DNA of 64,000 nucleotides from Stenotrophomonas indicatrix (lineage in GTDB: Bacteria > Pseudomonadota > Gammaproteobacteria > Xanthomonadales > Xanthomonadaceae). Numbering within the stretch: position 1 is the first letter of the stretch; each line of letters begins with the position of its first letter. Positions 21,182-63,388 of the stretch are shown here, piece by piece. The position numbers and the translations under genes were made by a program. The stretch lies in NCBI GenBank assembly GCA_041545745.1, contig CP168152.1, positions 1,672,001 to 1,736,000 on the forward strand, written 5' to 3'. Below the pieces are notes generated by a model. That model saw only the letters and a list, made by a program, of their open reading frames with translations, ran no database searches and was not told the DNA's origin.

Positions 21182-21273
21182 GGTTTTCAGGCCGGGCTGC
21201 GTCCGGCACCCGCAGAGGCGGAAACAACTGCAACAGCCGAAGCAACAGCCGGCTCTGGATTGTCTGTGTGTTT

Positions 21274-21375
21274 GGCGGGGCGGTGTCGGATTGCGGGGAC
21301 GCCGCAAGTACGTCCTTGTAGGCTTGGCCGCGGCATCCATGCCGCGGACACCCCGCAATCCGACACCGCCCCGCC
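21274..21375 (+). repeat. Long-stem hairpin element, copy 1
   Basis: Perfect 25-bp arms at 21274-21298 and 21351-21375 around a 52-nt loop. The loop holds two small hairpins of its own, one being CCGCGGCAT paired with ATGCCGCGG. Outer arm ends GGCGGGG/CCCCGCC are shared with the other copies, while the arm core (GGTGTCGGATTGC) is private to this copy. Confidence 0.85.
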
Positions 21376-21535
21376 TTCGACGATTCCCCGCTGCTGTTGG
21401 TAGGTGTCGACCTTGGTCGACACGTAGATCCACGCCATGAGTGGATGCTCTTCGTTCAATTATTGAGATATTCGATTCCAATGGAGATTCATCCACGCAT
21501 GGCGTGGATCTACTGGCCACCGGGAAACTGTCGAA

Positions 21536-21637
21536 GGCGGGGCACTGTAGGTTTGCGGGGTGTGAGCCGCATGGATGCGGCGACCAAGCCTCCATGGATG
21601 GATTCACGGCGACCCCGCAAACCTACAGTGCCCCGCC
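21536..21637 (-). repeat. Long-stem hairpin element, copy 2
   Basis: Perfect 26-bp arms at 21536-21561 and 21612-21637 around a 50-nt loop. The loop is the reverse complement of a diverged copy 1 loop, so the element lies in the opposite direction. The arm core (CACTGTAGGTTTGC) differs from all other copies but is matched on both sides. Confidence 0.85.
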
Positions 21638-21739
21638 CCCCTCAGGACCGCTGTTGCTTTGGCCGTTGCCCTGGCCTCTGCGGGTGCAGGGCGCAGCCCT
21701 GCCGCCGTAAACTAACCTTCGTTGCCCGCAGGATCTGCC

Positions 21740-22636
21740 ATGTTCGATATCTCTCCCCAGCTCGATTGCGCCGGCCGCGTGTTGCGCCTGGACCGTGCAC
21801 GGGTCATGGGTATCGTCAATGTCACCCCGGATTCGTTCTCCGATGGTGGCGCCCATGACACCACCGAAGCGGCGGTCGCGCATGGTCTGAAACTGGTGGA
21901 GGAGGGCGCCGACCTGCTCGACATCGGTGGCGAATCGACCCGTCCGGGCGCGGCGCCGGTGTCGATCGACGAGGAACTGCGTCGTGTCGTGCCGGTCATC
22001 GAGCAGCTGGCAGCGCGCACGGTGGTCCCGATCAGCATCGATACCTTCAAGCCGGAGGTGATGCGTGCCGCGGTTGCTGCAGGCGCGGGGATGATCAACG
22101 ACATCTTCGGCCTGCGCCAGGACGGTGCGCTGGAGGCGGCAGCGGACGCAGGCGTGCCGGTGGTGCTGATGCACATGCAGGGCGAACCGGGTCACATGCA
22201 GGCAGACCCGCAGTACGACGATGTCGTCACCGAGGTGCGTGGCTTCCTGGTGCAGCGACTGTTCGCCGCGGAGATGGCTGGCATCGCCAAGAAGAACCTG
22301 GTGATCGACCTCGGCTTCGGCTTCGGCAAGACCACTGCGCACAACATGACGCTGCTGGCCCGTTCGGAGCGTTTCCTTGAACTGGGCGTGCCGATGCTGG
22401 CCGGGCTGTCGCGCAAGCGCAGCCTGGGCGAGCTGACCGGTCGTCAGTCGCCGGCAGAGCGTGTCGCTGCGTCGCTGGCCGCACACCTGATCGCCGTGCA
22501 ACGCGGTGCCCGTATCGTGCGCGTGCACGATGTGGCAGCGACGGTCGATGCATTGAAGGTCTGGCAGGCGGTCGAGGCGGTACCCGCCGTGCGGGTGGAT
22601 GCCAAGCCGACCCTCCGCTGGCCGGACGAAGACTGA
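21740..22636 (+). CDS. folP: Dihydropteroate synthase
   Basis: Joins p-aminobenzoate to dihydropterin pyrophosphate in folate synthesis; target of sulfonamides. The 298 residues contain the signatures [15 protein letters not shown] and [11 protein letters not shown] (pterin and pyrophosphate site), plus MINDIFGLR and [14 protein letters not shown] [12 protein letters not shown] chose the ATG giving MFDISPQ because AGGAT lies 7 bases upstream; an earlier in-frame start six codons upstream is weaker. Its end overlaps the miaA ATG as TGATG. Confidence 0.95.
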
Positions 22637-23589
22637 TGGCAGTGGATCAGCGGCCGCTGGCGATCGCCGTGATGGGGCCGACCGCCAGCGGCAAGACCGC
22701 CACCGCGATCGCGCTGGCACAGCAGCTGGACGGTGAAATCGTCAGTGTCGATTCGGCGCTGGTCTATCGCGGCCTGGATATCGGTTCGGCCAAGCCGGAT
22801 GCGGCCGAACGCGCACAGGCACCGCACCACCTGCTGGACCTGCGTGATCCTTGGCAGACCTATTCGGCGGCCGAGTTCGCTGCCGACGCCGCCCGCGTGG
22901 TGGCCGAAATTGTCGCCCGAGGCAAGACTCCGATCCTGGCCGGCGGCACGGGCCTGTACTTCCGGGCGCTGTTGCAGGGGCTGTCGCCGATGCCGGAGGC
23001 CGACCCGGCGATGCGTGCCGTGCTGAGCGCCGAGGCCGCCGAGCGAGGCTGGGCTGCGCTGCACGCCGAACTGGCCGCCGTTGACCCTGCCGCCGCTGCA
23101 CGCATCCATGCCACCGATCCGCAACGCATCCAGCGGGCGCTGGAGGTCTACCGGCTGACCGGCACGCCGATCAGTGAATGGCAGCGTCGCCCCGGCGTCG
23201 CCCCGTTGCCGGTGCGTACATTGAAGCTGATTCTGGCGCCGCGCGACCGCGCCGTGCTGCACCAGCGCATCGAGGCCCGCTTCGACGCCATGCTCGCCCA
23301 GGGCTTTCTCGACGAAGTGCGCGCCCTGCGTGCGCTGCCGGAAATGCGGGCGGTCGCCGCGCCGCTGGACCTCCCGGCCGTCCGCGCGGTGGGGTATCGC
23401 CAGGCCTGGGAGTACCTGGACGGCGAGGGGGACGAGGCCCGCTTCCGTGACAAGTCCATTTTCGCCACCCGGCAACTGGCCAAGCGCCAGCTGACCTGGC
23501 TGCGCAGCGAGCTTGATGCACGCTGGTTCGACCCCCATATGGATGGGGAGCGCCTGGCAGGCGCGGTGTCGACCTTCGTTGCACGCTGA
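22636..23589 (+). CDS. miaA: tRNA dimethylallyltransferase
   Basis: Adds the dimethylallyl group to A37 of tRNAs reading UNN codons. The 317 residues start with the P-loop [16 protein letters not shown], followed by [18 protein letters not shown] and the C-terminal [21 protein letters not shown], all typical. miaA-hfq-hflX is a conserved order in proteobacteria and is complete here, with folP placed ahead of it. Confidence 0.96.
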
Positions 23590-23684
23590 ACCGACGCTGG
23601 CCGTGTACCATCATGGGCCGGCAAGCGGCTCGGGGGCCGCGGCAACCGCCGGCTACCAATAAGAACAATAATCAGGAGTGTGCA

Positions 23685-23960
23685 ATGTCCAAGGGGCAAT
23701 CGCTGCAGGATCCTTTCTTGAATGCACTGCGGCGCGAGCGCGTGCCGGTTTCGGTGTACCTGGTCAACGGCATCAAGCTGCAGGGCACGATCGAATCGTT
23801 CGATCAGTTCGTGGTCCTGCTGCGCAACACCGTCAGCCAGATGGTCTACAAGCACGCCATTTCCACCGTGGTGCCGGCGCGCAACGTCAAGGTCGGCCCG
23901 GGTGGTGGGTACGTGCAATCAGGTGAGGATGGTCAGGCGGGTGATGAAGCAGACGAATGA
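23685..23960 (+). CDS. hfq: RNA chaperone Hfq
   Basis: Hexameric Sm-like protein that pairs small RNAs with mRNAs. The 91 residues have the Sm1 region ([40 protein letters not shown]) and the Sm2 motif YKHAIST at about residues 55-61. The tail after residue 68 is short, glycine-rich and acidic (DEADE). CAGGAG lies about 8 bases before the ATG. hflX begins 14 bp downstream. Confidence 0.97.
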
Positions 23961-23974
23961 TGTTGGAGCGGTGA

Positions 23975-25285
23975 ATGTTTGACCGCTCGAAAAAGGGCGA
24001 ACACGCCCTGTTGATCCAGCCGCATTTCGGCAAGCTGGAAGACGATGTGCTGGAAGAATTCGGTGATCTGGCCCGCTCGGCTGGGGCCAGCATCGCGGTG
24101 ACCATCACCGCGCGCCTGGATCGTCCCAATCCATCGACCCTGCTCGGCAGCGGCAAGCTGGATGAGATCAAGGCCGCCGCCGAAGCAACTGGCGCAGATC
24201 TGATCCTGGTCAACCACGCGTTGAGCCCAGGCCAGGAACGCAATCTGGAACGTTTCCTGGAGCGTCGGGTGATCGACCGTACCGGTCTGATCCTGGACAT
24301 CTTTGCCCAGCGTGCGCGCAGCCATGAAGGCAAGCTGCAGGTCGAGCTGGCCCAGCTGCGCCATATGGCGACCCGCCTGGTGCGCGGCTGGACCCATCTG
24401 GAGCGCCAGCGTGGTGGTTCGATCGGTCTGCGCGGCCCGGGTGAAACCCAGCTGGAAACCGATCGTCGCCTGCTGCAGAAGCGGGTTGAACAGCTGCAGA
24501 AGCGGCTGGAAAAAGTCGAAGTACAGCGCACCCAGATGCGCCGTGCGCGTGTGCGCAGCGAATTGCCGCGCGTGGCCCTGGTGGGCTACACCAATGCCGG
24601 CAAATCGACCTTGTTCAATGCGATGACCGGCGCCGAGGCCTATGCGGCTGACCAGTTGTTCGCGACCCTGGATCCGACCGTGCGCCGGATCGCCGTGCCT
24701 GGTGGCAACGTCGTGCTGGCCGATACGGTTGGTTTCGTACGCGACCTGCCGCATGACCTGGTGGCGGCCTTCCGCTCGACCCTGTCTGAAGCGCGGGAAG
24801 CGGATTTCCTGCTGCACCTTGTCGATGCCGCCGATCCGCACCGCGAGGAGCGCATCGCCCAGGTCGACGAAGTGCTGACCGCCGTCGGTGCCGGCGACCT
24901 GCCGCAGCTGCTGGTGTTCAACAAGATCGACCGCATCGAGGGTGCCGACGTGCGCCACGATGGCCAGGACGGCGTGCCGGATGAATCGCGGCGTGAGCGG
25001 GTGTGGATTTCCGCACGCGACGGGCAGGGCATCGAACTGTTGCAGGCTGTGCTCGGCAAGCGGCTGGGTCTGCAGCATGTCACCGGCGAGCTGCGCCTGC
25101 CACCCAGTGCCGGCCGCCTGCGCGCGCGCCTGCACCAGCTGGAAGTGGTCCGCAGTGAACAGGCTGATGAAGAAGGCTGGCTGTTGCAGGTCGATCTTCC
25201 CATCGCCGAGGCCGAGAAGCTGGCGGCCAGCGCCGATGGCGAGCCGATCCGGGCCCTGCTGCCGGAGAAACTGCCCGAATGGTGA
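23975..25285 (+). CDS. hflX: GTPase HflX
   Basis: Ribosome-associated GTPase that splits stalled 70S ribosomes in E. coli. The 436 residues carry the N-terminal nucleotide-binding domain and the glycine-rich RGGSIGLRGPGETQLETDRR, a coiled coil, then the G domain: GYTNAGKST (G1), DTVGFVRDLP (G3) and NKID (G4). The start directly follows hfq. A SMAG palindrome two bases after the stop probably marks the end of the transcript. Confidence 0.95.
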   Translation: MFDRSKKGEHALLIQPHFGKLEDDVLEEFGDLARSAGASIAVTITARLDRPNPSTLLGSGKLDEIKAAAEATGADLILVNHALSPGQERNLERFLERRVIDRTGLILDIFAQRARSHEGKLQVELAQLRHMATRLVRGWTHLERQRGGSIGLRGPGETQLETDRRLLQKRVEQLQKRLEKVEVQRTQMRRARVRSELPRVALVGYTNAGKSTLFNAMTGAEAYAADQLFATLDPTVRRIAVPGGNVVLADTVGFVRDLPHDLVAAFRSTLSEAREADFLLHLVDAADPHREERIAQVDEVLTAVGAGDLPQLLVFNKIDRIEGADVRHDGQDGVPDESRRERVWISARDGQGIELLQAVLGKRLGLQHVTGELRLPPSAGRLRARLHQLEVVRSEQADEEGWLLQVDLPIAEAEKLAASADGEPIRALLPEKLPEW

Positions 25286-25286
25286 G

Positions 25287-25309
25287 GTAGTGCCGGCCGC
25301 TGGCCGGCA
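25287..25309. repeat. SMAG (GTAG) palindrome
   Basis: GTAG followed by TGCCGGCCGCTGGCCGGCA, identical to the cluster near 3240. It begins one base after the hflX stop codon. Confidence 0.85.
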
Positions 25310-25387
25310 GTTCCTGCAGCCCCGCGCCGCGACACCACCCTGCGATCTGCGGTACAACGTGCAGGTTCTTCATCTTTCAGCTACCCG

Positions 25388-25882
25388 ATGTCCATCCCCT
25401 CCGACGCCGAACTCAACGCCCAGGCCGCTGCGCTGGGCCAGCGCCTGCATCAGGCTTCGCTGCAACTGGTGACTGCTGAAAGCTGCAGCGGTGGCTGGAT
25501 CGCCAAGTGCATGACCGACATCGCCGGTTCCTCGGCGTTCTTCGACTGCGGCATGGTGGTCTACAGCTACGAAGCCAAGCAGCGCCTGCTCGGCGTGCGC
25601 GCGCAGACGCTGGAGCAGTTCGGTGCGGTCAGCCGCGAAGCCGTGCTGGAGATGGTGTCCGGGGCACTGGTCAATTCCGGTGCCGGCATCGCGGTGGCAG
25701 TGACCGGTATCGCAGGGCCGGGCGGTGGCAGCCCGGACAAGCCGGTCGGCAGTGTCTGGATCGGCTGGAAGCGCCGCGGCGGCTATGCCCGTGCCGAGCT
25801 GTTCCAGTTCGACGGTGACCGCGAAGCCATCCGCCGGCAAACCGTAGCGGCGGCATTGCACGGTATCGACGCCCAGCTGTGA
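25388..25882 (+). CDS. pncC: Nicotinamide-nucleotide amidohydrolase (CinA C-terminal type)
   Basis: Deamidates nicotinamide mononucleotide to nicotinate mononucleotide, recycling NAD breakdown products. The 164 residues are a stand-alone CinA C-terminal domain: LVTAESCSGGWIAKCMTDIAGSSAFFDCGMVVYSYEAK with the catalytic Ser, and VAVTGIAGPGGGSPDKPVGSVWIGW. Length fits E. coli PncC. The gene often lies close to recA in gammaproteobacteria; here ubiB and lexA separate them. Confidence 0.92.
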   Translation: MSIPSDAELNAQAAALGQRLHQASLQLVTAESCSGGWIAKCMTDIAGSSAFFDCGMVVYSYEAKQRLLGVRAQTLEQFGAVSREAVLEMVSGALVNSGAGIAVAVTGIAGPGGGSPDKPVGSVWIGWKRRGGYARAELFQFDGDREAIRRQTVAAALHGIDAQL

Positions 25883-25917
25883 CATGCTGCTCCGGCAATC
25901 AACCGGAGTAGGCAACG

Positions 25918-27600
25918 ATGTGGGAGACGCTGGGCACCGTCCGTGACCTTGGCCGGCTGCAGGAAATCGCCGCCGTCCTGATCCGCTACGGCTTCGGCGA
26001 CGTCGTGCGGCGCATCGGCCTGGCCACGGTGCTGGAACGTACCGGCCGCCTGCTGCATTGGAACGAGGAGCGGCAGGAGATGCTGCGGATGACCGCGCCG
26101 GTGCGCGTGCGCAGCGCCCTGCAGGAACTCGGTCCGACGTTCGTGAAGCTGGGCCAGGTGCTCGCCACCCGTGTGGACCTGCTGCCGCCGGACTGGATCG
26201 CCGAACTCTCCGAGTTGCAGAACGCGGTCCCGGCATTGCCCTATGAAAAGATCCGCGAACAGCTGGAGGCCGATCTCGGTGCGCCGCCTTCGCAGGTGTT
26301 CGCCTTCCTTGATGAAACCCCGATGGCCGCTGCTTCATTGGCCCAGGCGCACCGTGCGCGGCTGCGCGATGGCCGCGAAGTGGTGTTGAAAGTGCGTCGC
26401 CCCGGAATCCGTGACGTGGTTGAAGCCGATCTGCGATTGCTGGCACGGCTGGCCGAGATCGTTGAGGCACGCCTGCCGGACCTGCGTCGCTACCGGCCCG
26501 CCGAGGTGGTGCAGCAGTTCACCGTGTCGCTGCGGCGCGAGCTGGATTTCGCCGCGGAGTGCCGCAACGCCGAGCGCATCGCGCGCAACTTCGAGGGGCG
26601 TGACGACATCCTGATTCCGGCGGTGCACTGGCAATGGACCTGCGAAAGCCTGAACGTGCAGGACTTCGTCGACGGCATCGCGGGGCGTGATCTGGCCGGT
26701 GTCGATGCCGCCGGCCTCGACCGCCGTGAACTGGCCCGGCGTGGTGGCGACATCGTATTGAAGATGGTGCTTGAGGACGGCAGCTTCCACGCCGATCCGC
26801 ACCCGGGCAACATCATCTACCTGCGCGATGGCCGCATCGGCGTGATCGATTTCGGCATGGTTGGCGCCTTGTCAGAGGTACGCCGCTTCCAGGTCGCACA
26901 GCTGCTGCATGGCCTGGTGGAACAGGACCCGCAGGGCGTGGCCGACGTGTTGCTGGACTGGGCGGGCGGCGTGGAGGTGGACGAGAACCGGTTGCAGCAC
27001 GACATCAGCCTGTTCGTCGACCAGTACCGTGGCGTACCGCTGAAGGACCTGCGCATCGGCCTGATGCTGGGCGACATCACCCAGCTGCTGCGCAGCTACA
27101 ACCTGACCCTGCCGGCGGATCTGGCACTGATGATCAAGGCCTTCCTGACCCTGGAGGGCATGGGCCGCCAGCTCGACCCGGATTTCGACATGGCCAGCGC
27201 CGCGCGCCCGTTCCTGGAGCGGGTGGTACTGCAGCGCTATGCGCCGCGGGCGCTGTTCAAGCGTGGCCGACGCAGTCTGCTGGGCATGATCGACTTTGCC
27301 GGTGAACTGCCGCGGGATCTGCGCAAGCTGGTCCAGGCGGCGCGCCGTGGCCGCCTGCAGCTGAAGGTCGAGACCAGCGCACTGCAGGGCTTCGGTGACC
27401 AGGTCAATCGCGCCGCGAACCGGCTGGTGATGGGGATCGTCACCGCGGCCTTGATCATCGGTTCCTCGATCGTGATGCACAGCGTAGGGGGCGTCTCCAG
27501 CCGTTGGCTGCTGGCGCTGGGCGTGTGCGGTTTCATCGGCGCAGGGTTCTGCGGGGTGTGGATCCTGTTCTCGATCTGGCGCAGCGGTAAACACACGTAG
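25918..27600 (+). CDS. ubiB: UbiB-family protein kinase-like protein (ubiquinone synthesis)
   Basis: ABC1/AarF/COQ8 family member needed for ubiquinone synthesis; family members are atypical ATPases. The 560 residues show the KxGQ motif in FVKLGQVLATR, the alanine-rich loop AAASLAQAHRA, the substrate DGREVVLKVRRPG, the catalytic region FHADPHPGN and the metal-binding DFGMVG. Two membrane helices lie at the C-terminus (about 500-520 and 528-550), ending SGKHT. The ATG has AGTAGG about 8 bases upstream. An alternative name in some annotations is a general AarF/UbiB kinase, since xanthomonads may hold more than one. Confidence 0.88.
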   Translation: MWETLGTVRDLGRLQEIAAVLIRYGFGDVVRRIGLATVLERTGRLLHWNEERQEMLRMTAPVRVRSALQELGPTFVKLGQVLATRVDLLPPDWIAELSELQNAVPALPYEKIREQLEADLGAPPSQVFAFLDETPMAAASLAQAHRARLRDGREVVLKVRRPGIRDVVEADLRLLARLAEIVEARLPDLRRYRPAEVVQQFTVSLRRELDFAAECRNAERIARNFEGRDDILIPAVHWQWTCESLNVQDFVDGIAGRDLAGVDAAGLDRRELARRGGDIVLKMVLEDGSFHADPHPGNIIYLRDGRIGVIDFGMVGALSEVRRFQVAQLLHGLVEQDPQGVADVLLDWAGGVEVDENRLQHDISLFVDQYRGVPLKDLRIGLMLGDITQLLRSYNLTLPADLALMIKAFLTLEGMGRQLDPDFDMASAARPFLERVVLQRYAPRALFKRGRRSLLGMIDFAGELPRDLRKLVQAARRGRLQLKVETSALQGFGDQVNRAANRLVMGIVTAALIIGSSIVMHSVGGVSSRWLLALGVCGFIGAGFCGVWILFSIWRSGKHT

Positions 27601-27613
27601 TGTGCTTACCGCT

Positions 27614-27677
27614 GCGGTTCCCACCGGGAACCGCGGAATCGCGCAGCGATTCCTGTAGAGCCGACCGCTGGTCGGCT
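27614..27677. repeat. Hairpin and SMAG palindrome after ubiB
   Basis: GCGGTTCCC (27614-27622) pairs with GGGAACCGC (27626-27634), a likely transcript end for ubiB. A SMAG element with GTAG head and arms AGCCGACC/GGTCGGCT follows at 27655-27677. The rest of the 212-bp gap to lexA holds a weak GAGCATGGCTC palindrome and the lexA operator. Confidence 0.7.
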
Positions 27678-27791
27678 GCTTTCGGCTTTGCCGCCCGGCC
27701 ATTCGCCCGATTACCGAGCATGGCTCGGCACGACAGGTCGGATTCGGCTCGCATTGCGCCTTGTCGCCCTCAGCACTTGCGGTCCCGGGAG

Positions 27792-27810
27792 TTAGTAGTA
27801 ATACTACTAA
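27792..27810 (+). promoter_or_regulatory. LexA operator (SOS box, Xanthomonas type)
   Basis: TTAGTAGTAATACTACTAA is a perfect palindrome with 9-bp arms around one central base. It matches the operator described for Xanthomonas LexA. It ends two bases before the lexA ATG, so bound LexA would cover the ribosome site region and block its own gene. Confidence 0.92.
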
Positions 27811-27812
27811 CC

Positions 27813-28448: not shown

Positions 28449-28649
28449 CGATCCACCCTGCAATTCCCGCGGTCTTTTGTGGCGATTCTCTGGTTCTGCT
28501 GAGGTTGGTACGGATGTCCGATAATTTTTTTCCGAACGCCGGGCAGAATCTCAGCCTGTGCGATACGCCAGCCTTAAAGTGAACCCATGGCCAAGAAGAC
28601 TTCCAAAGACAGCACCTCCAACGACGTGACCTCTGCAAGGACCAATCCG

Positions 28650-29687
<1,038 letters not shown>

Positions 29688-33190: not shown

Positions 33191-33394
33191 ATGTTGATCC
33201 TGACTCGCCGCGTCGGCGAAACCCTGATGATCGGTGACTCGGTGAGCGTCACCGTGCTTGGCGTCAAGGGTAACCAGGTGCGTATCGGCATCACTGCGCC
33301 GAAGGACGTCGCTGTGCATCGCGAAGAGATCTACCAGCGCATCCAGCGTGGTGACGAAGCCGGCAGCACCGGTGGTGAAAATTCTGCGGAATAA
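33191..33394 (+). CDS. csrA: Carbon storage regulator CsrA
   Basis: Dimeric RNA-binding regulator that blocks or stabilises mRNAs with exposed GGA motifs; controls motility, biofilm and virulence in relatives. The 67 residues begin [16 protein letters not shown] and include [23 protein letters not shown], both diagnostic; the tail is a short Gly/Ser/Glu extension. GGAG lies 12 bases before the ATG. The 148-bp gap after alaS holds a hairpin and the palindrome CTTGACGGAGCGTCAAG (33128-33144), whose TTGACG could be a -35 element. Confidence 0.97.
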
Positions 33395-33397
33395 GGC

Positions 33398-54152: not shown

Positions 54153-54158
54153 ACCCTC

Positions 54159-54236
54159 AAAAAGGGGACGGAGGGGATTAAGTCGCATTCGGCCTACTAG
54201 TGCAGGAAACGACTTAATCCCCTCCGTCCCCTTTTT
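54159..54236. terminator. Bidirectional terminator with 27-bp perfect inverted repeat
   Basis: Arms at 54159-54185 and 54210-54236 are perfect complements, starting AAAAAGGGGACGGAGGGG and ending CCCCTCCGTCCCCTTTTT, around a 24-nt loop. Each strand therefore reads a stem followed by five T. It sits exactly between two convergent genes. The arm sequence looks like a dispersed xanthomonad repeat rather than a random terminator. Confidence 0.8.
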
Positions 54237-54239
54237 GCT

Positions 54240-55408: not shown

Positions 55409-55424
55409 ATGAAAACGTTTTCAT
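55409..55424 (-). promoter_or_regulatory. LacI-family type operator palindrome
   Basis: ATGAAAACGTTTTCAT is a perfect 16-bp palindrome with a central CG, the form bound by LacI/PurR/CcpA-family repressors. It lies 30 bp upstream of the MFS transporter ATG. No LacI-family gene is in the window, so the regulator would act from elsewhere. Confidence 0.65.
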
Positions 55425-55565
55425 GGGCCCTGGGCAAGTGCCATGAACGACATCAGACGACGCATACGATTGCAGTGGTCCGGATGCGTCACCGTTGATT
55501 AACGTCGCCAGCGCAAAGTAGCCCGACGGTGGGCATTCCGCCTGGCCGCCGCCGGAGATCAGCGC

Positions 55566-56261: not shown

Positions 56262-56319
56262 CCATCGATACGGAGCAAGCAGAGCCTGATCAGACCCGGG
56301 CGCCACTCACGACAGCGGG

Positions 56320-56345
56320 GGCGCAGGAGAGTAAACTCCTGCGCC
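56320..56345 (+). other. Hairpin in the leader of the siderophore receptor
   Basis: GGCGCAGGAG (56320-56329) pairs perfectly with CTCCTGCGCC (56336-56345) around AGTAAA. There is no T tract after it. It lies between the hydrolase stop and the receptor GTG and may be a transcript end or a leader structure. I saw no Fur box in this gap. Confidence 0.4.
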
Positions 56346-56421
56346 GGCGGCCTTTGGCCGCATCCCCCCCCTTGCCTCGAGCCGCCGCCAGAGGATCCCA
56401 CCCCTTCGTGGAGGTCCCGTC

Positions 56422-58617
56422 GTGTCGTCTGTGCCTGTTCGTTTTTCCGTGCTCTCCCTGCGTCGTCGCCCGTTGGCGAACGCCCTTGCCCATGGTCTTC
56501 TGCTGACCTCGCTGGCCGCTGCCGGCGCCGCTTCGGCGCAATCCGCCCCGGCTGAAGAGGAGGGCAAAACGCCCTCGCAGACCCTGCAGACCGTGCAGGT
56601 CACCGCCAACCAGCTGGGCACCATCACCGAAGGCAGCGGCGCCTACACGCCGGGCACCATCGCCACCGCCACCCGCCTGGTACTGACCCCGCGGCAGACC
56701 CCGCAGACCATCAGCGTGATCACCCGTGCGCAGATGGACGACTTCGGCCTGGATGGCATCGATGACGTGATGCGGGTGACCCCGGGCATCAGCATCGTCA
56801 CCTACGACAGTGAGCGCACCGAGTACTACGCACGTGGTTTTGCCGTGCAGAACTTCCAGTACGACGGTATTCCGATGTCGCGCGACTCGGCCTACTCGGC
56901 CGGCAATACGCTCAGCGATACCGCGATCTACGACCGCATCGAAGTGCTCAAGGGTGCCACCGGCCTGCTGACCGGCATGGGCGATCCCGGCGCGACCATC
57001 AACCTGGTGCGCAAGAAGCCGGGCAAGGAATTTGCCGGCAGTGCGACGCTCGGCGTCGGTCGCTGGGACGACTACCGTGCAGAAGTCGATGTCGGCGGCC
57101 CGCTGACCGCCGATGGCCGCGTGCGTGGCCGTGCGGTGGCTGCCTGGCAGGACAAGCATTCCAATCTGGATTTCTACCAGCGCACCAGCAAGGTCGGCTA
57201 TGCCGTGCTGGAAGCCGATCTGGGCGAACGCACGCTGCTGACCGTGGGTGGCGACGTGCTGGAGAGCGACCCCAAGGGCTCGACCTGGGGCGGCATTCCG
57301 TTGCTGGACAGCCAGGGCAATTTCAATGACATGCCGCGCTCGTTCAACAACGGTACCCGCTGGAGTGGCTGGCGCCAGTACGTGCGCACCGGCTTTGCCA
57401 CGCTGGAACACACGTTCGACAACGACTGGGTGGCCAAGCTGCAGCTCAACCACCAGGTCAATGGCTACGATGCCGCGCTGGCGGGTGCGGCCGGCGGCAA
57501 TCCCGATCCGGTCACCGGCGAAGGCGTCTCGCTGTGGCTGGGCAAGTACGTCGGCAAGACGGTCAGCAACGCTGCGGACTTCTATCTGAGCGGCAACTTC
57601 GGTCTGTTCGGCCGCCAGCATGAACTGGTGGTCGGCGGCAGTGCGTCGCGCAAGCGCTGGACCAACACCGGCTATTCGCCGCAGCCCGGCTACCCGACCG
57701 CCGTTGCCGACTACAACAGCTGGAAGGGTGATATCCCGGAACCGGAATGGCAGCGCGGTTATGGCAACAATGAAGTGACCCGCGAGAACGGTCTGTACGT
57801 GGTCGGTCGCTTCGACGTGGCCGACCCGTTGAAGGTGATCGTCGGCAGCCGCCTGGCCAGCTACCGTTCGCCGCAGACGCGCGAGACCGGCGTGTTCGTG
57901 CCGTATGCCGGCGTGGTCTACGACCTTGGTGAGCACTATTCGGTCTATGCCAGCTACAGCACCATCTTCAAGCCGCAGGGTGAGCGCGACGAACAGGGCA
58001 AGGCACTGGATCCGCTGGAAGGCCGCAGCTATGAAATGGGTCTGAAGGCGGAGTTCCTCGACGGCCGCTTCAATGCCAGCGCGGCACTGTTCCAGCTTGA
58101 CCAGGACAATTTCGCCCAGCCTACAGGCGGCAAAACGCCGACCGGCGATATCGCCTATCGCGGATTGATGGGGGTGCGCACCAAGGGCTACGAACTGGAG
58201 TTGTCCGGACAATTGGCCGAGGGCTGGCAGGTGCAGGGCGGCTTTGCGCACAAGATCGCCCGCCAGGCCGGGACCAAGGTGTCCACGCTGGAGCCGGAAA
58301 ACCAGTTCAGCCTGCACACCAGCTACCGTCTTCGCGGCGACTGGCGTGGCCTGACCGTCGGTGGCGGCGCGCGCTGGCAGGATTCCACGTTCGGCAACAT
58401 CACCAACCCGGCCAGTGGTGCGTCGGTGGTTCATCGCACCCAGCCGTACTGGCTGCTGGATGCCATGGCCCGCTACCAGTTCAACGATCGCCTGTCGGCT
58501 ACCGTCAACGTCAACAACCTGCTGGACAAGCGCTATTACACGATCTTCAGCTGGTACAGCACCTACACCTGGGGCGAGCCGCGCAACGTGCGGCTGGCGG
58601 TGACGTACAAGTTCTGA
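56422..58617 (+). CDS. TonB-dependent siderophore receptor (FpvA/FhuE-like)
   Basis: A 731-residue outer-membrane receptor for a ferric siderophore. The signal peptide is long (about 1-40, ending AASAQS). TonB box and plug: LQTVQVTANQ, LTPRQTPQTISVITRAQMDDFGL, RGFAVQNFQYDGIPMSRDS, DRIEVLKGATGLLTGMGDPGATINLVRK, which is the siderophore-receptor signature. Barrel ends RNVRLAVTYKF with the terminal Phe. It has no STN domain. Start is GTG with GGAGG 8 bases upstream. No sigma or synthesis genes are adjacent, so it probably takes up a foreign siderophore. Confidence 0.93.
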   Translation: MSSVPVRFSVLSLRRRPLANALAHGLLLTSLAAAGAASAQSAPAEEEGKTPSQTLQTVQVTANQLGTITEGSGAYTPGTIATATRLVLTPRQTPQTISVITRAQMDDFGLDGIDDVMRVTPGISIVTYDSERTEYYARGFAVQNFQYDGIPMSRDSAYSAGNTLSDTAIYDRIEVLKGATGLLTGMGDPGATINLVRKKPGKEFAGSATLGVGRWDDYRAEVDVGGPLTADGRVRGRAVAAWQDKHSNLDFYQRTSKVGYAVLEADLGERTLLTVGGDVLESDPKGSTWGGIPLLDSQGNFNDMPRSFNNGTRWSGWRQYVRTGFATLEHTFDNDWVAKLQLNHQVNGYDAALAGAAGGNPDPVTGEGVSLWLGKYVGKTVSNAADFYLSGNFGLFGRQHELVVGGSASRKRWTNTGYSPQPGYPTAVADYNSWKGDIPEPEWQRGYGNNEVTRENGLYVVGRFDVADPLKVIVGSRLASYRSPQTRETGVFVPYAGVVYDLGEHYSVYASYSTIFKPQGERDEQGKALDPLEGRSYEMGLKAEFLDGRFNASAALFQLDQDNFAQPTGGKTPTGDIAYRGLMGVRTKGYELELSGQLAEGWQVQGGFAHKIARQAGTKVSTLEPENQFSLHTSYRLRGDWRGLTVGGGARWQDSTFGNITNPASGASVVHRTQPYWLLDAMARYQFNDRLSATVNVNNLLDKRYYTIFSWYSTYTWGEPRNVRLAVTYKF

Positions 58618-58636
58618 TCGCGTTGCGACATGACAT

Positions 58637-58664
58637 GCCCGCGATGCCGGACGGCATCGCGGGC
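58637..58664. terminator. Hairpin between convergent siderophore receptor and pirin genes
   Basis: GCCCGCGATGCC (58637-58648) pairs perfectly with GGCATCGCGGGC (58653-58664) around a 4-nt loop in the 54-bp gap. T-rich sequence (GTGTTGGTT) follows on the plus strand only. Confidence 0.6.
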
Positions 58665-58671
58665 GTGTTGG

Positions 58672-59373
58672 TTACAGCGGCAGGTCGAACACCAGCACTT
58701 CGGCGTCGTTGCCGTTTTCCAGGGTCAGCTGTGCCTCGTCGCTGACCTGCAGTGCGTCACCTGCTTCCAGGGTGATGCCGTTGACCTGCAGTTGGCCCCG
58801 CGCCACCTGCACATACGCGCCGCGGCCGGCAGCCAGGGCGTGATGCAGCTTCTGCTCGCCATCGAGGATGGTGGCGAAGATGCGCGCATCCTGGTGGATG
58901 TGCAGCGAGCCATCGGCGCCATCCGGCGAGGCGATCAGGCGCAGCTGGCCGCGCTTGCTGTCCGGCGTGAAGTGGGTCTCCTCATACGACGGCGTGATGT
59001 TCTCGGTCTGCGGGAAGATCCAGATCTGCAGGAAATGCACCGGATCGGTGGCCGAATGGTTGAACTCGCTGTGGCTGACGCCGCTGCCGGCGCTCATGCG
59101 CTGCACGTCGCCGTAGCGCAGCACCGAACCGGTGCCCATCGAGTCCTTGTGTTCCAGTGCGCCACCCAGCACATAGGAGACGATCTCCATGTTGCTGTGG
59201 CTGTGGGTGCCGAAGCCCTGGCCGCCGGTCACCTTGTCTTCGTTGATGACCCGCAGCGGGCCGAAGCTCACATAACGGGGGTCGTAGTAGCTGGCGAACG
59301 AGAAGGTATGGCGCGAGGACAGCCAGCCATGCTCGGCCAGGCCACGGGTAGCGCTCTTGCGGATCTGCAGCAT
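58672..59373 (-). CDS. Pirin-family protein (YhaK/YhhW type)
   Basis: A 233-residue bicupin protein; pirins of this type can act as quercetin dioxygenases. The metal-binding N-terminal cupin shows GFGTHSHSNMEIVSYVLGGALEHKDSMG and SHSEFNHS; the rest of the motif set (RYVSFGPLRVINEDKV, LQIWIFPQTENITPSYEE) is diagnostic. I chose MLQIRKSATRG, with GGAGA 8 bases upstream. It diverges from a LysR gene, the common arrangement in which the regulator controls the pirin gene. Confidence 0.9.
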   Translation of the reverse strand: MLQIRKSATRGLAEHGWLSSRHTFSFASYYDPRYVSFGPLRVINEDKVTGGQGFGTHSHSNMEIVSYVLGGALEHKDSMGTGSVLRYGDVQRMSAGSGVSHSEFNHSATDPVHFLQIWIFPQTENITPSYEETHFTPDSKRGQLRLIASPDGADGSLHIHQDARIFATILDGEQKLHHALAAGRGAYVQVARGQLQVNGITLEAGDALQVSDEAQLTLENGNDAEVLVFDLPL

Positions 59374-59448
59374 GATGGAATCTCCTTGTTCGATGGTTTC
59401 GATGGAGCGGGTTCGGCTGGAAGCCGCTGTGTTTCCCCGTTGGAGAGA

Positions 59449-59484
59449 AGTATCCGCTTGCACCTTGGGTTTGAAAAACGGATA
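59449..59484 (-). promoter_or_regulatory. Pirin promoter within a candidate LysR binding region
   Basis: On the minus strand TTTTCA (59477-59472) and GATACT (59454-59449) are 17 bp apart. The inverted repeat TATCCG (59451-59456) and CGGATA (59479-59484) brackets this promoter, and a second palindrome TCGAAAATTTCGA (59501-59513) directly precedes the LysR ATG. Both fit a divergent LysR-controlled pair. Confidence 0.5.
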
Positions 59485-59513
59485 GTTTTGACAGCCATCA
59501 TCGAAAATTTCGA

Positions 59514-60434
59514 ATGCTCAAGCTCAGCCTCGATGCCCTGCAGATCCTGGATGCGATCGACCGCCGAGGCTCCTTTGCCGGTGCCGGCAAGGCCCTGCAC
59601 AAGGTGCCTTCGACCATTTCCTACACCGTGGCCAAGCTGGAAGAGGATCTGGGCGTGCAGCTGTTCGACCGGATCGGCCCGCGGGCGGAGCCGACCGAGG
59701 CCGGGCGCGCGTTGCTGGAGGAGGGCAGGCACCTGCTGCGTGCGGCCCGGGAGCTGGAACTGCGGGTACGGCGGGTAGCCTCGGGCTGGGAGGCTGAATT
59801 GACCATGGCGGTGGATTCGGTGTTCCCGACTTGGCTGCTGGGGCCGGAAATTGCTGCTTTCCGCGAGGTGGCGGCGCCGACCCGATTGCGCCTGTTTGGC
59901 GAGGCGTTGTCCGGGACCTGGGAAGCGCTGCTGGACCGGCGTGCCGACCTGCTGGTGGGCGCGCCGGGCGAGGGCCCCAGTGGCGGGGGCTACGTGGTCG
60001 AGCCGCTGGGCAGCGTTGGTTTCGTGTTTGCGGTGGCGCCCGGTCATCCGCTGGCGACGGTGCCGGGTGTGCTGGGCCGCGAGCAGTTGGCGCCGTATTG
60101 CGCGATCGCCGTGTCCGACTCGGCACGGCGGCTGCTGCCACGGACGGTGGGTCTGTTGATGGGCCAGGAGACGTTGACCGTGCCGGACATGGCCAGCAAG
60201 TTGAAGCTGCAGTGCCAAGGGCTGGGATTCGGTTTCCTGCCCGAGCCGTGCGCGCGCGCGGCGGTGGCGCGCGGCCAGCTGGTGATCCGCGAGGTCGAGG
60301 AGCACAAGCCGGAGGAGACCTTCTGGCTGGCCTGGCGCACCGGCGAAGATGGCGCGGCCCTGCGCTGGTGGCGCGAGCGCCTGCGACGGCCGGAGCTGCT
60401 GGCGCAATGGTGGCAGGCGATGGCAGAGGGATAG
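59514..60434 (+). CDS. LysR-family transcriptional regulator
   Basis: A 306-residue regulator. The winged helix-turn-helix is at about 1-60 (LQILDAIDRRGSFAGAGKALHKVPSTISYTVAKLEEDLGVQLFDR), followed by a linker helix and the two-lobed effector domain (from about 90). It is divergent from the pirin gene with 140 bp between the starts, and the palindromes in that gap suggest that it controls both itself and pirin. The effector is unknown. A large composite repeat begins directly after its stop. Confidence 0.92.
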   Translation: MLKLSLDALQILDAIDRRGSFAGAGKALHKVPSTISYTVAKLEEDLGVQLFDRIGPRAEPTEAGRALLEEGRHLLRAARELELRVRRVASGWEAELTMAVDSVFPTWLLGPEIAAFREVAAPTRLRLFGEALSGTWEALLDRRADLLVGAPGEGPSGGGYVVEPLGSVGFVFAVAPGHPLATVPGVLGREQLAPYCAIAVSDSARRLLPRTVGLLMGQETLTVPDMASKLKLQCQGLGFGFLPEPCARAAVARGQLVIREVEEHKPEETFWLAWRTGEDGAALRWWRERLRRPELLAQWWQAMAEG

Positions 60435-60527
60435 GGTTCGGCCGGGCTGCGCCCTGCACCTGCCGAATCGACGGCAACAGCCAAAGCCAAAGCCAAAGCC
60501 AAAGCAACAGCGGGCATTCCGTGGAAT

Positions 60528-60629
60528 GGCGGGGTGGGTCCGGTTGCGGGGGACGCTGCAAGTACGTCCATGTAAGCTCGGTCGCCGCATCCATGCGGCT
60601 CACGCCCCCGCAACCGGACCCACCCCGCC
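60528..60629 (+). repeat. Long-stem hairpin element, copy 3
   Basis: Perfect 25-bp arms at 60528-60552 and 60605-60629 around a 52-nt loop. The loop matches that of copy 1 (GCAAGTACGTCC is shared) and keeps the inner hairpin GCCGCA/TGCGGC with changed bases on both sides. The arm core (TGGGTCCGGTTGC) is private. Confidence 0.85.
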
Positions 60630-60820
60630 TTCGACAGATCTCCGCGATCTGTTGGATGGCATGGCCTGCTCTTGGTCTGCTCTTGGTGGGTGTCGACCTT
60701 GGTCGACACGTGAATCCACGCGACGCGTGGATGCTCTTCGTTCAATTGTCGAAATATTTGATCTCGATGAGATTCATCCACGCATGGCGTGGATCTACCC
60801 GATCGCGGAAATCTGTCAGA

Positions 60821-60924
60821 GGTGGGGCGGTATGGGTAGGCAGGACCGTTGGCGCCATGGATGGCGCCATCGAGCCCCCATGGATGGGTTTACGGCGTGT
60901 CCTGTCTGCCCATACCGTCCCGCC
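60821..60924 (-). repeat. Long-stem hairpin element, copy 4
   Basis: 26-bp arms at 60821-60846 and 60899-60924 around a 52-nt loop. Four positions are not Watson-Crick, and all four would be G-U pairs in a plus-strand RNA. The loop holds GGCGCC-ATGGAT-GGCGCC and is the reverse complement of the copy 5 loop with one difference, although the arms differ strongly. Confidence 0.82.
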
Positions 60925-61005
60925 ATCCCACGGAATGCCTGCTTCTGCTGTTGCCGTTGCTTTGGCCTCTGCGGGTGCAGGGTGCAACCCTGCCGAAAAA
61001 CACAC

Positions 61006-61036
61006 AAAAAAAACAGCAGGCCGGGGCCTGCTGTTT
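61006..61036 (-). terminator. Intrinsic terminator of the tRNA-Arg operon
   Basis: Reading the minus strand, AAACAGCAGGCC (61036-61025) pairs with GGCCTGCTGTTT (61022-61011), and eight T follow from 61013 to 61006. It lies 8 bp after the last tRNA. Confidence 0.9.
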
Positions 61037-61044
61037 CGGTGTAA

Positions 61045-61121
61045 TGGTGCGCCCGGAGAGATTCGAACTCCCGACCGCCTGGTTCGTAGCCAGGTACTCT
61101 ATCCAACTGAGCTACGGGCGC
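61045..61121 (-). tRNA. tRNA-Arg (anticodon ACG), copy 3 of operon
   Basis: 77 bases on the minus strand: acceptor GCGCCCG paired to CGGGCGC, D-arm TAGCTCAGTTGGATAGAGTA, anticodon loop CTACGAA with ACG, T-arm GGAGTTCGAATCTCTCC and encoded CCA. It is identical to the two copies upstream and is last in the operon. ACG is normally read as ICG after deamination and serves CGU, CGC and CGA. Confidence 0.97.
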
Positions 61122-61153
61122 CAATTACATAAACTTGTTGTGTTGATCGTGTG

Positions 61154-61230
61154 TGGTGCGCCCGGAGAGATTCGAACTCCCGACCGCCTGGTTCGTAGCC
61201 AGGTACTCTATCCAACTGAGCTACGGGCGC
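61154..61230 (-). tRNA. tRNA-Arg (anticodon ACG), copy 2 of operon
   Basis: Identical in all 77 bases to its two neighbours. Spacers to them are 32 and 58 bp and not alike, so copies are kept the same by conversion or recent duplication of the gene body alone. Confidence 0.97.
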
Positions 61231-61288
61231 GCGGTACACAATCAAATTTTACTGCACTTCCAGCGGCGGATGCTGAAGGTCTGTCGAG

Positions 61289-61365
61289 TGGTGCGCCCGG
61301 AGAGATTCGAACTCCCGACCGCCTGGTTCGTAGCCAGGTACTCTATCCAACTGAGCTACGGGCGC
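61289..61365 (-). tRNA. tRNA-Arg (anticodon ACG), copy 1 of operon
   Basis: Promoter-proximal copy, identical to the other two. Its first ten bases (GCGCCCGTAG) are also the last codons and TAG stop of the hydrolase gene that is read into it. Confidence 0.97.
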
Positions 61366-62282
61366 CCTGCGACAGGAGCGGAATTATGCGGATGTCGGCG
61401 CGAGTCGTCAACGCTTTTGTGAAAATTTTCACCCAACTGAATGAAAAACGCCTCTGCGACAGCCTCCGGGTGTTTCATCCACGCGAAGTGGTCGGCTCGC
61501 GCGCCCAGCTCCTGCGCAGAAAGCACGCGCAGCTGTGAGGCGACATTCGGCAGTTTCGCCAGCAGCGCCTGCATCGATCCGATAGGCGCCAGCCAATCGT
61601 TTTCCATCAGCACCGCCTGCGCACTGCCATGCACGCGCGCCATCTGCGCATCGAGGTCCTCGTCCATGCCCACGGCAGCGTAGTGATTGTTCAGCCCTAC
61701 GCGCGCCCAGTCGGCGATCAATCCCCGTGCTTCGGTGCCGCCGAAGCCCAGCCGGCGCCCGTGCAGCACGCCCTGATGCCGTGAGATCCATGGCAGGAAG
61801 CGATAGATCAGCGGCAGCAACCAGCCGCGTGGTGGCGGGAACGTGCGCCAGAACGGTGTACCGCTGGCCGCCAGCCACAATCGATCGAATGCCTGCGGCT
61901 GGCGCCCGGCATGCACGCAGGCCAGCTGACCGCCCAGGCTGTGACCACCGATGATCCATGGCAGTACCTCCTGCGCGTCATCGGCATCGGCGAGCAGGGC
62001 CTGGCTGGCCGGCAGATCGTGATCGAGAATCTGCCGGTAGCCCCAATCCTGGGTGCGTGACGGGCGCAGCGAACTGCTGCCATTGCCGCGCCATTCGTGC
62101 AGGTAGACCGCCACGCCCCTGGCTGCCAGTGCCTGCGCAAGCGGCAGGTAATGGCGCGTGGCCACGCCCAGCGCCGGCAGCCACAACAGCCGTGCCAGCG
62201 GCTGTGCAGGCACGCAGGCGATGATCTCGTAACGGTGGCCATCGCCGCTGTCCACGGCGAGCGCGCGTGGCGAATCGCTCAT
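61356..62282 (-). CDS. Alpha/beta-hydrolase, serine aminopeptidase (S33)-like
   Basis: A 308-residue cytosolic hydrolase. Motifs: LLWLPALGVATRHYLPLAQALAARGVAVYLHEWRGNGSS, the nucleophile GGHSLGGQLA, a late Asp (MENDWLAP) and His (GARADHFAWM). The start overlaps the thiD stop as ATGA, so it is co-translated with thiD. The gene runs into the first tRNA-Arg: the last codons contain the tRNA promoter and the stop lies in the tRNA. Its final 25 or so residues (HKSVDDSRRHPHNSAPVAGRP) look unlike the fold and probably result from that overlap. Confidence 0.85.
   Translation of the reverse strand: MSDSPRALAVDSGDGHRYEIIACVPAQPLARLLWLPALGVATRHYLPLAQALAARGVAVYLHEWRGNGSSSLRPSRTQDWGYRQILDHDLPASQALLADADDAQEVLPWIIGGHSLGGQLACVHAGRQPQAFDRLWLAASGTPFWRTFPPPRGWLLPLIYRFLPWISRHQGVLHGRRLGFGGTEARGLIADWARVGLNNHYAAVGMDEDLDAQMARVHGSAQAVLMENDWLAPIGSMQALLAKLPNVASQLRVLSAQELGARADHFAWMKHPEAVAEAFFIQLGENFHKSVDDSRRHPHNSAPVAGRP
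61383..61411 (-). promoter_or_regulatory. Promoter of the tRNA-Arg operon, inside the hydrolase coding region
   Basis: On the minus strand TTGACG (61411-61406), a 17-bp spacer and CATAAT (61388-61383) form a near-consensus promoter, 18 bp before the first tRNA. A GC-rich stretch follows the -10. All of it lies within the last 20 codons of the hydrolase gene. Confidence 0.8.
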
Positions 62283-63088
62283 GCGTGCGGTGCCGCGCCG
62301 AAGTGGTCCAGTACCAGCACCTCGCTGCGGCCAGGCGCGTAGCCCTGCTGCAGGCCGCGCGCTACGTAGTCGATGCCGGCTTCGCAGGCATTGGCCAGGC
62401 TCAGCCCGTTGCACAGCTGTGCGGCGATGGCCGAGGCCAGCGTGCAGCCCGTGCCGTGCGCATCCAATGGCAAGCGGGCATGGATGAACTCTTCGCTGCT
62501 GACACCATCGAAGTAACGGTCGACCACGCGGTTGCCCTCCTGCAGGTGACCGCCCTTCAGCAGCACGGCACCGGCACCCAGATCAAGCAGTGAGGCGGCG
62601 GCTTGTTCTGCGTCGTTGCCATTGTCGATGCTGCGGCCGACCAGCAGCTCCGCTTCCGGTGCATTGGGGGTGACCAGGGTGGCCAGTGGCAGCAGCCGTT
62701 CGCGCATTGCCTGCAGCGCGCTGTCCTCCAGCAGGCGCGCGCCGCTGGTGGCGACCATCACCGGGTCCAGCACCACGTGCGGCGGTCGATGGCGTTCAAG
62801 GGCATCGGCCACAGCGTGGATCACCTCGGCGTTGGCCAGCATGCCCAGCTTCACTGCGTGGATATCGAAGTCGTCGAAGCAGGCCTCGATCTGCGCGCGC
62901 AGGAAGTCGACCGGCGGCACGTGCACGGCGCTGACGCCGCGGGTGTTCTGCGCGGTCAGCGCGGCGATCACCGACAGGCCGTGCACGCGATGCGCGGCGA
63001 AGGCCTTCAGGTCGGCCTGGATGCCGGCGCCACCGCCAGAATCGGAGCCGGCGATGGTCAGGGCGGAAACGGGGGTGGTCGGGCTCAT
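62279..63088 (-). CDS. thiD: Hydroxymethylpyrimidine/phosphomethylpyrimidine kinase
   Basis: Phosphorylates HMP and HMP-phosphate in thiamine synthesis. The 269 residues show ALTIAGSDSGGGAGIQADLKAFAAHRVHG, VKLGMLAN, VLDPVMVATSG, TLVTPNAPEAELL and DAHGTGCTLASAIAAQL (catalytic anion hole with Cys/Gly), complete for a ThiD kinase. Start is the ATG giving MSPTTPVSALTIAGSD. I saw no TPP riboswitch in the 310-bp gap upstream, which is filled with repeats. The hydrolase gene is coupled behind it. Confidence 0.95.
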   Translation of the reverse strand: MSPTTPVSALTIAGSDSGGGAGIQADLKAFAAHRVHGLSVIAALTAQNTRGVSAVHVPPVDFLRAQIEACFDDFDIHAVKLGMLANAEVIHAVADALERHRPPHVVLDPVMVATSGARLLEDSALQAMRERLLPLATLVTPNAPEAELLVGRSIDNGNDAEQAAASLLDLGAGAVLLKGGHLQEGNRVVDRYFDGVSSEEFIHARLPLDAHGTGCTLASAIAAQLCNGLSLANACEAGIDYVARGLQQGYAPGRSEVLVLDHFGAAPHA

Positions 63089-63119
63089 GCGGTGATTGTG
63101 CCGTGCTGCTAAGTGTGGG

Positions 63120-63388
63120 GGTAGTGCCGGCCGGGTTGCACCCGGCACCCGCAGAAGCAACAGCAACACCGGAGCAACGGCGGCATCTCGTGGGATGCGG
63201 GGCGGTGTGGGCCTGCAGGACACGCCGTAAACCCGTCCATGGGGGCTCGATGGCGCCATCCATGGCGCCAACGGTCCTGCAGCCCCACACCGCCCCGCCT
63301 CTGACGGCTTCCTGCAGTAGATCCACGCCATGCGTGGATATCGCGGAAATGATCGGAGGGACAACGTAGATCCACGCCATGCGTGGAT
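63120..63388 (+). repeat. Composite repeat with long-stem hairpin element, copy 5
   Basis: Order: GTAG-headed palindrome with CCGGGTTGCACCCGG (from 63121), an AGCAAC tract, the hairpin with 26-base arms 63196-63221 and 63274-63299 (24 of 26 paired, 52-nt loop), then SMAG copies at 63317-63339 and 63366-63388. This is a single half-block compared with the two head-to-head blocks. It fills the gap between thiD and the DUF1275 gene; no gene is seen. Confidence 0.83.

Follow-up and report, generated by a model that had tools for sequence, protein, structure and literature searches.

What keeps the two arms of a repeated palindrome matched when the arms themselves differ strongly from one copy to the next? 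The window analyzed here, a stretch of 64,000 nucleotides from Stenotrophomonas indicatrix (GenBank contig CP168152.1, positions 1,672,001 to 1,736,000), holds several such palindromes. Is the folded structure kept as RNA or as a DNA cruciform, or are the arms simply copied from one side to the other? And if an RNA is kept, what might bind it?

A dispersed element with two ANGGAN loops

The original prediction listed five whole copies and one half copy of the element, and all were found again (Table 1), with the arms recovered by a repeat search. Its description of arms that differ among copies but match within each, with small hairpins in the loop, also agrees with what we see, and so do the outer ends GGCGGGG/CCCCGCC: the window contains the pattern GGCGGGG-N60-90-CCCCGCC 3 times, versus 0.13 expected and a maximum of 1 among 100 shuffles. 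The five whole copies have fold z-scores of -7.6 to -10.5; folding is about as good on one strand as on the other, and when copies B and C are folded singly, their minimum-energy structures lack the consensus core. As for the half copy, a truncated model match at 1671309-1671452(+) of the same genome, about 0.55-0.69 kb ahead of the window, is probably its 5' half, and genome G001 carries a full orthologous copy at the matching place.

Table 1. Copies of the element and the csrA gene in the window
Feature	Position	Strand	Model score (bits)	Hexaloops	Arms (repeat search)	Remark
Copy A	21274..21375	minus	118.5 minus, 47.1 plus	21335-21340 (P3), 21312-21317 (P2)	21274-21305/21344-21375; 32 nt, 91%	
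Copy B	21536..21637	plus	111.3 plus, 48.2 minus	21571-21576 (P3), 21594-21599 (P2)	21536-21561/21612-21637; 26 nt, 100%	outward-facing with A
Copy C	60528..60629	minus	110.0 minus, 39.0 plus	60589-60594 (P3), 60566-60571 (P2)	60528-60552/60605-60629; 25 nt, 100%	
Copy D	60821..60924	plus	136.6 plus, 29.6 minus	60857-60862 (P3), 60880-60885 (P2)	60821-60846/60899-60924; 26 nt, 85%	outward-facing with C
Copy E	63196..63299	minus	133.0 minus, 42.4 plus	63258-63263 (P3), 63235-63240 (P2)	inside 51-nt repeat pair, 76%	single
Broken copy, 3' half	819..862	plus				837-862 is the P1 3' arm; break in P2 loop
rsmA/csrA gene	33191..33394	plus				presumed binding partner; product 67 aa; Pfam CsrA, 91.3 bits; relatives with solved structures

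A model search of the whole S. indicatrix genome found 161 copies in 100 intergenic groups. Each copy is about 100 nt long and consists of a P1 stem of ~26 bp, free in sequence but with matched arms, around two short hairpins (P2 and P3). The 150 rows of the alignment leave out 11 low-scoring copies, some of them truncated or with insertions. The small hairpins had been noticed originally; what had been missed is their most informative feature, namely, that both carry a C-ANGGAN-G hexaloop. Since the models were trained on copies with such loops, loop conservation among their matches is favored, and with this in mind the motif is found at P3 in 148 and at P2 in 147 of the 150 aligned copies, and at both in 145. 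The two GGA triplets lie 19-20 nt apart in these 145 rows and 19-21 nt apart in 64 of 69 rows from elsewhere. The first N of P2 is G in 66 copies, U in 61, A in 17 and C in 3.

As expected of a CsrA/RsmA ligand, the copies present CANGGANG, published as an Rsm consensus (PMC6849547), in hairpin loops and in pairs. With two docking motifs per copy and ~160 copies, the genome may thus hold its own dispersed set of RsmA/CsrA docking sites. A csrA gene is present in all 31 genomes with copies versus 220 of 398 overall (up to 9 candidates per genome scored), an association confounded by ancestry. Within the genus, csrA does not predict copies; 5 of 25 genomes have the gene and no copy detected among up to 87 candidates scored per genome. 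In three other genome searches for copies, up to 150 candidates per genome were scored.

Which strand is kept

The arms compensate for each other's changes, as had been claimed: in P1, counted over the 119 distinct sequences among the 150 rows, 98.2% of pairs are standard versus 71.5% when arms are dealt among copies. In an alignment of 31 copies, double changes occur at 29 of 40 pairs. Covariation within the genome, at orthologous sites and in other genera supports conservation of the fold itself. The choice among RNA, cruciform and arm copying had been left open, and here the departures from Watson-Crick pairing are informative. In P1 of the S. indicatrix copies, G-U outnumbers A-C by 83 to 10, with 43:5 and 40:5 when copies are separated by genome strand. 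The copies of other genera give 66:8, part of their rows having also been used to build the model to which they were aligned, and one-sided changes at orthologous sites give 56:9. The control, SMAG-like hairpins nearby, gives 42:43, although it takes in chance hairpins (8-bp stems with at least 6 Watson-Crick pairs), which pull the ratio towards 1:1. A model that itself prefers G-U over A-C guided the fitting of alignments A2 to A7; the MAFFT alignment A1, which predates any model, has 27 G-U and 0 A-C (11 P1 columns, 31 copies). Because the G-U excess is strand specific and absent from the SMAG-like hairpins, it is apparently the RNA of the ANGGAN strand that is kept, not a cruciform or a pair of copied arms. 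One defined strand of each copy appears to be kept as RNA, and neither a cruciform nor arm copying is accepted as the only cause, given ratios of 83:10 and 66:8 versus 42:43.

Could DNA nonetheless be the molecule that matters? The copies might fold as cruciforms or single-stranded DNA and serve as REP-like substrates for transposition or recombination, their arms being rematched by template switching or whole-copy replacement. Many of the double changes at orthologous sites are transversions, clustered as bursts of 7-11 within one copy; whole copies are also swapped for other family members, so that some double changes are not step-by-step compensation. The site at folP carries differing classes of copy among genomes and none in some, the SMAG palindromes are enriched nearby, and both strands fold well. 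All of this would suit a DNA-level process, but the roughly eightfold excess of G-U over A-C on either genome strand, not seen in SMAG-like hairpins, and loops that conserve ANGGA while N is free speak against it, and we consider it unlikely.

Relation to SMAG and to Rfam families

SMAG palindromes had been said always to accompany the element. In fact, a SMAG-like hairpin lies inside or within 300 bp of 72 of the 100 groups versus 74 of 500 random 1-kb window pieces, a strict SMAG core is found for 55 of 100 groups, and the one exact SMAG variant searched for is absent from 6 genomes of the genus that do carry the element, in two of them as one copy. SMAG company is therefore enriched but inconstant, and SMAG is ruled out as an obligatory partner. 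Copies resemble SMAG and other REPs in being dispersed intergenic palindromes that often share one module. They differ in that SMAG, as described in PMC2613905, is about 23 nt long with a GTAG end (REP/SMAG palindromes being about 20-40 nt), whereas the element here measures about 100 nt, ends differently and is G-U biased.

Closer relatives are found in Rfam, although the copies score under the thresholds of both families concerned. TwoAYGGAY RNA (RF01731), as outlined in PMC2864571, likewise has two ANGGAN-loop hairpins within an outer stem, on the same strand, and binding to CsrA has already been proposed for it (PMC4333381). One copy scanned alone gives the best score seen, 39.9 bits on the ANGGAN strand (threshold, 43 bits). 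RF01731 has no match in the window or in 15 stretches scanned together, and 1 in the S. indicatrix genome (31.6 bits); six sub-threshold matches overlap model copies on the same strand, and model R2 also picks up (35.3 bits) an RF01731 locus of genome G030 that is above threshold. The copies differ from TwoAYGGAY in that a purine frequently occupies the variable loop position (in P2, 83 of the 147 fitting loops), that P1 is longer and paired throughout, and that there are ~160 per genome, many in outward-facing pairs, the copy number having been counted for these copies alone.

The Rfam family that matches most copies is Ysr224 (RF02770), a Yersinia sRNA. It aligns over nearly the whole core at 41-43 bits but is defined on the opposite strand; its best score is 43.3 bits, and none of 31 genomes of the order exceeds its 70-bit threshold. 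TwoAYGGAY and Ysr224 may be two views, from opposite strands, of a single kind of element; among the open-literature papers listed for either name, none appears under both. Should the opposite strand then be the functional RNA, an Ysr224-like sRNA that pairs through its UCC loops with GGA (Shine-Dalgarno-like) sites in mRNAs? Ysr224 is defined there, and PMC12112432 reports several copies, with expression, in Yersinia ruckeri. On that strand, however, the favored departures would become A-C mismatches, which makes such an RNA highly improbable. Rfam microRNA matches fell below threshold and resemble hairpin noise. New points are the ~160-fold amplification, the pairs that face outward and abut stop codons, the strand test, and a connection of TwoAYGGAY with Ysr224.

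Placement and a possible role in RsmA buffering

Where do the copies lie? By gene calls from a self-trained script, which overlooked at least one short ORF (one additional set being cruder), 40 of the 100 groups lie between converging genes and 10 between diverging ones, the former being enriched relative to 46 window junctions (Fisher p 0.008). A stop codon is faced by 103 outer module ends, 92 of them at ≤100 nt. Such placement could suggest intrinsic terminators or end-protecting hairpins of converging genes, with incidental loops. Yet of 153 copies, 7 in the sense and 12 in the antisense direction have a T-run of at least 4 within 20 nt past P1, and terminators need neither ANGGAN loops nor a fixed 20-nt distance; intrinsic termination is rejected, and we regard the wider reading as very unlikely.

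It is also conceivable, if improbable, that each copy acts mainly as a cis-regulatory leader, with RsmA affecting translation or stability of the gene downstream in sense. A gene start follows a sense copy at 56 module ends, mostly 60-260 nt off, and in Zobellella and Marinobacterium copies are found ahead of ORF starts. In the window, copy B lies 98 nt ahead of the ORF at 21740, which we take to be folP from its neighbors, and copy E is upstream of the ORF that ends at 62279. Against a general leader role stand the stop codons faced by 103 module ends and the preponderance of converging over diverging genes.

We think it probable that the element is a dispersed structured RNA of the TwoAYGGAY kind, lying between genes, whose copies jointly bind and buffer RsmA; both the binding and the decoy role are inferred. 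The long P1 stem, free in sequence, bears a junction with two short C-ANGGAN-G hairpins about 20 nt apart, and one RsmA dimer could clamp both loops of a copy. Where outer ends face stop codons, a neighbor's transcript first runs into an antisense copy, which tells against this reading. Since paired copies face outward (in the window, 21274/21536 and 60528/60821), transcription that reads through a pair from either side yields an RNA with one competent copy. As a net result, copies that read-through brings into the 3' part of transcripts would most likely bind RsmA jointly and buffer it. Copies in leaders of genes just downstream would join in, and local protection or processing of the host RNA may be added.

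Known CsrA/RsmA decoys are a few dedicated small RNAs. If our reading is correct, a decoy-like RNA repeated ~160 times at gene ends, and apparently under selection as RNA, would control the amount of a global regulator by another route. More tentatively, the two-site copies might offer RsmA docking sites across the whole transcriptome and replace dedicated CsrB/RsmY-type decoys in this lineage, with summed read-through at gene ends setting free RsmA. The genus is related to Xanthomonas, for which PMC7694677 and PMC7286519 report the usual decoys missing (the former names CsrB, CsrC and RsmV-Z) and PMC7694677 describes RsmU, from a 3' UTR. CsrB/C, RsmX/Y/Z and RsmU (the last compared by description only) likewise offer GGA hairpin loops to RsmA/CsrA but come from dedicated or single loci, in contrast to the dispersed copies here. 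In the open literature, to which our search was confined, we found no paper joining CsrA with repetitive extragenic palindromes and a sponge. The proposal would also give a role to a repeat family overlooked by Rfam thresholds, and the count of G-U versus A-C is a simple test applicable to other palindromic repeats.

Two observations on arrangement may be added. Within pairs, the 5' arms are as alike as permuted ones (identity, 0.680 versus 0.679; 50 pairs, 1000 permutations), which supports neither mutual avoidance of stem sequence nor an origin of pairs as recent inverted duplicates. Single copies between tandem genes are about equally often sense (11) and antisense (8) to the genes, which tells against the proposed reading.

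Copies, Anatomy and Pairing

The stem-loop family is a real element. Its five whole copies and one half copy lie in the window where the original prediction had placed them, and their arms pair far above shuffles. Copy E, used as a query against the window's own genome (4.66 Mb), hit 49 sites, including a few in which an already matched copy was read on its other strand. The covariance-model search that had been proposed, run with R1 (built from a first alignment of 31 oriented copies), returned at least 150 matches in this genome, and the family totals 161 copies in 93 retrieved stretches plus the window.

On the higher-scoring strand, a copy reads 5' to 3' as the 5' arm of the long outer stem (P1), an inner hairpin (P3), a conserved joint, a second hairpin (P2), a conserved joint and the P1 3' arm; most copies score about 92 to 146 bits on this strand versus about 30 to 50 bits on the opposite one. 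The loop C-ANGGAN-G is present in P3 of 148, in P2 of 147 and in both of 145 of the 150 aligned copies, the five misfits being four single-base changes and one insertion. The GGA-to-GGA distance is 19 to 20 nt in the 145 rows having both motifs and 19 to 21 nt in 64 of 69 rows of other genera. Across the 150 copies, the loop-bearing stems also vary in a matched manner. Some copies reach ~195 to 202 nt, with 75 to 80 nt extra (L148:2343-2538, L096:2335-2530, L178:1720-1917 and L176:1689-1887; also L088, L183, L190, L191 and L198), and the alignment places long inserts in both their hairpin loops.

Features of the window and matched stem columns of the alignment
Feature	Position	Strand	Remark
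Copy A	21274-21375	-
Copy B	21536-21637	+
Copy C	60528-60629	-
Copy D	60821-60924	+
Copy E	63196-63299	-
Half copy	819-862	+	P1 3' arm 837-862
rsmA	33191-33394
sX6 sRNA match (Rfam)	5352-5767	+	45 bits, threshold 40
Inverted repeat	54158-54237		perfect, 28 nt; 24 nt between arms
Stem columns	50/61		G-C 107, C-G 43
Stem columns	51/60		C-G 76, G-C 73
Stem columns	73/166		U-A 111, C-G 37
Stem columns	74/165		A-U 80, C-G 70

Covariation and the Choice of Strand

The predicted covariation is borne out by the first alignment, in which 29 of 40 consensus pairs carry double compensatory changes. In P1, counted over 119 distinct stems, 26 pairs and 3046 cells with a base in each arm, we found 2909 Watson-Crick, 83 G-U, 10 A-C and 44 other combinations; pairing falls from 98.2% to 71.5% when the 3' arms are dealt among copies. 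G-U outnumbers A-C in 18 columns (the reverse in one), and the excess is equal for copies on the two genome strands (43:5 and 40:5). Other genera, with 68 distinct copies, gave 66:8. SMAG-like control hairpins from the same stretches, located by Watson-Crick scoring only, gave 42:43 (163 distinct of 289). A DNA process blind to strand would not be expected to prefer G-T to A-C on one strand; we therefore regard the ANGGAN strand as the one preserved, as RNA. The family most probably acts at the RNA level. The two strands of the copies are not distinguished by folding energy, and for copies B and C the fold of lowest energy departs from the consensus core.

At matching sites, where 57 of 61 copies from related genomes have a counterpart in the window's genome, 1106 of 1444 orthologous P1 pairs are unchanged. 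Both partners differ in 245, of which 235 exchange one Watson-Crick pair for another; in the remaining 93 a single partner differs (56 via G-U, 9 via A-C, 28 other). The double changes cluster in bursts, many being transversions. At folP, 30 loci were compared, contig ends cutting 4 of them short. A pair of copies is present in 7; one same site carries differing copy classes, and other loci are without copies. The ortholog pattern and the folP site thus show arm matching to be kept both by step-wise change and by whole-copy replacement.

In three copies a break follows the GG of the P2 loop: the window half copy (818/819), L024 and L178:2028-2229. The interrupting DNA of the first two shares terminal sequence and probably represents one insertion-sequence family; the third holds ~80 nt of palindrome-rich DNA. 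The DNA of the loop may be targeted by insertions.

Genomic Setting

The 161 copies, none within a predicted gene, form 100 groups, of which 59 are minus-plus pairs, one is minus-minus-plus and 40 are singles; plus-minus and plus-plus groups are absent. Transcription reading through a pair from either flank would thus meet one antisense, then one sense copy. Flanking genes converge at 40 groups, run in tandem at 49, diverge at 10 and are undetermined at one; of 46 window junctions, 8 converge and 8 diverge (Fisher p 0.008 and 0.28, respectively). A stop codon is faced by 103 module ends, at most 100 nt away in 92, and a gene start by 56, mostly at 60 to 260 nt. Spacers within pairs span 45 to 252 nt (median 151), and paired copies are no more similar than random ones. 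In other genera, 8 of 10 multi-copy groups are minus-plus. A genome from another taxonomic family of the class has, at G241:C1:94413-95646, six tandem minus-strand copies ~229 bp apart.

Known RNA Families, RsmA and Distribution

Scanned alone, a single copy scores 39.9 bits with TwoAYGGAY (RF01731; threshold 43) on the ANGGAN strand and 41 bits with Ysr224 (RF02770; threshold 70) on the opposite strand. In a batch scan of 15 stretches TwoAYGGAY was not matched, and Ysr224 recurred on the strand opposite to that of the copy. RF01731 exceeds threshold in 3 of 41 genomes; of its over-threshold loci, the broader model R2 recovers one at 35.3 bits and, weakly, two more (25.9, 14.6). Six sub-threshold RF01731 matches overlie R1 copies on the same strand. 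Ysr224 is reported to be transcribed from several copies in Yersinia ruckeri (PMC12112432); the strand on which it is defined counts against our strand choice, unless paired modules yield both strands. Published sources list TwoAYGGAY as probably RNA (Weinberg 2010, PMC2864571), propose that it binds CsrA (PMC4333381), give the Rsm consensus as CANGGANG (PMC6849547) and report Xanthomonas to be without CsrB/CsrC and RsmX/Y/Z homologues (PMC7694677, PMC7286519).

The window's rsmA product is close to solved-structure proteins such as 2jpp and the 2mf series, which are RsmE-RNA complexes. The family is best read as a much-amplified TwoAYGGAY relative with two RsmA-type sites per copy; copies likely bind RsmA as putative targets, and a candidate role as a genome-wide RsmA buffer is preferred, with less certainty.

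R1 matches occur in 23 of 41 genomes (own plus relatives), namely 20 of the 25 congeneric ones and 3 of the other 16, from 1 to at least 87 per positive genome. Of 398 Pseudomonadota genomes, 31 have R2 copies; these 31 all belong to the window's class and fall in 18 of 212 genera. Among the matches listed, the exact core is found in Stenotrophomonas species, Zobellella and Marinobacterium. csrA was found in 220 of the 398 genomes and in all 31 with copies, an association confounded by ancestry, and in 39 of the 41, including genus members without copies. A record titled Bacillus subtilis (L297) holds an outward-facing pair that looks like contamination from a Stenotrophomonas-like genome. Elsewhere in the window lie an inverted repeat, for which we saw no link to the family, and the sX6 match.
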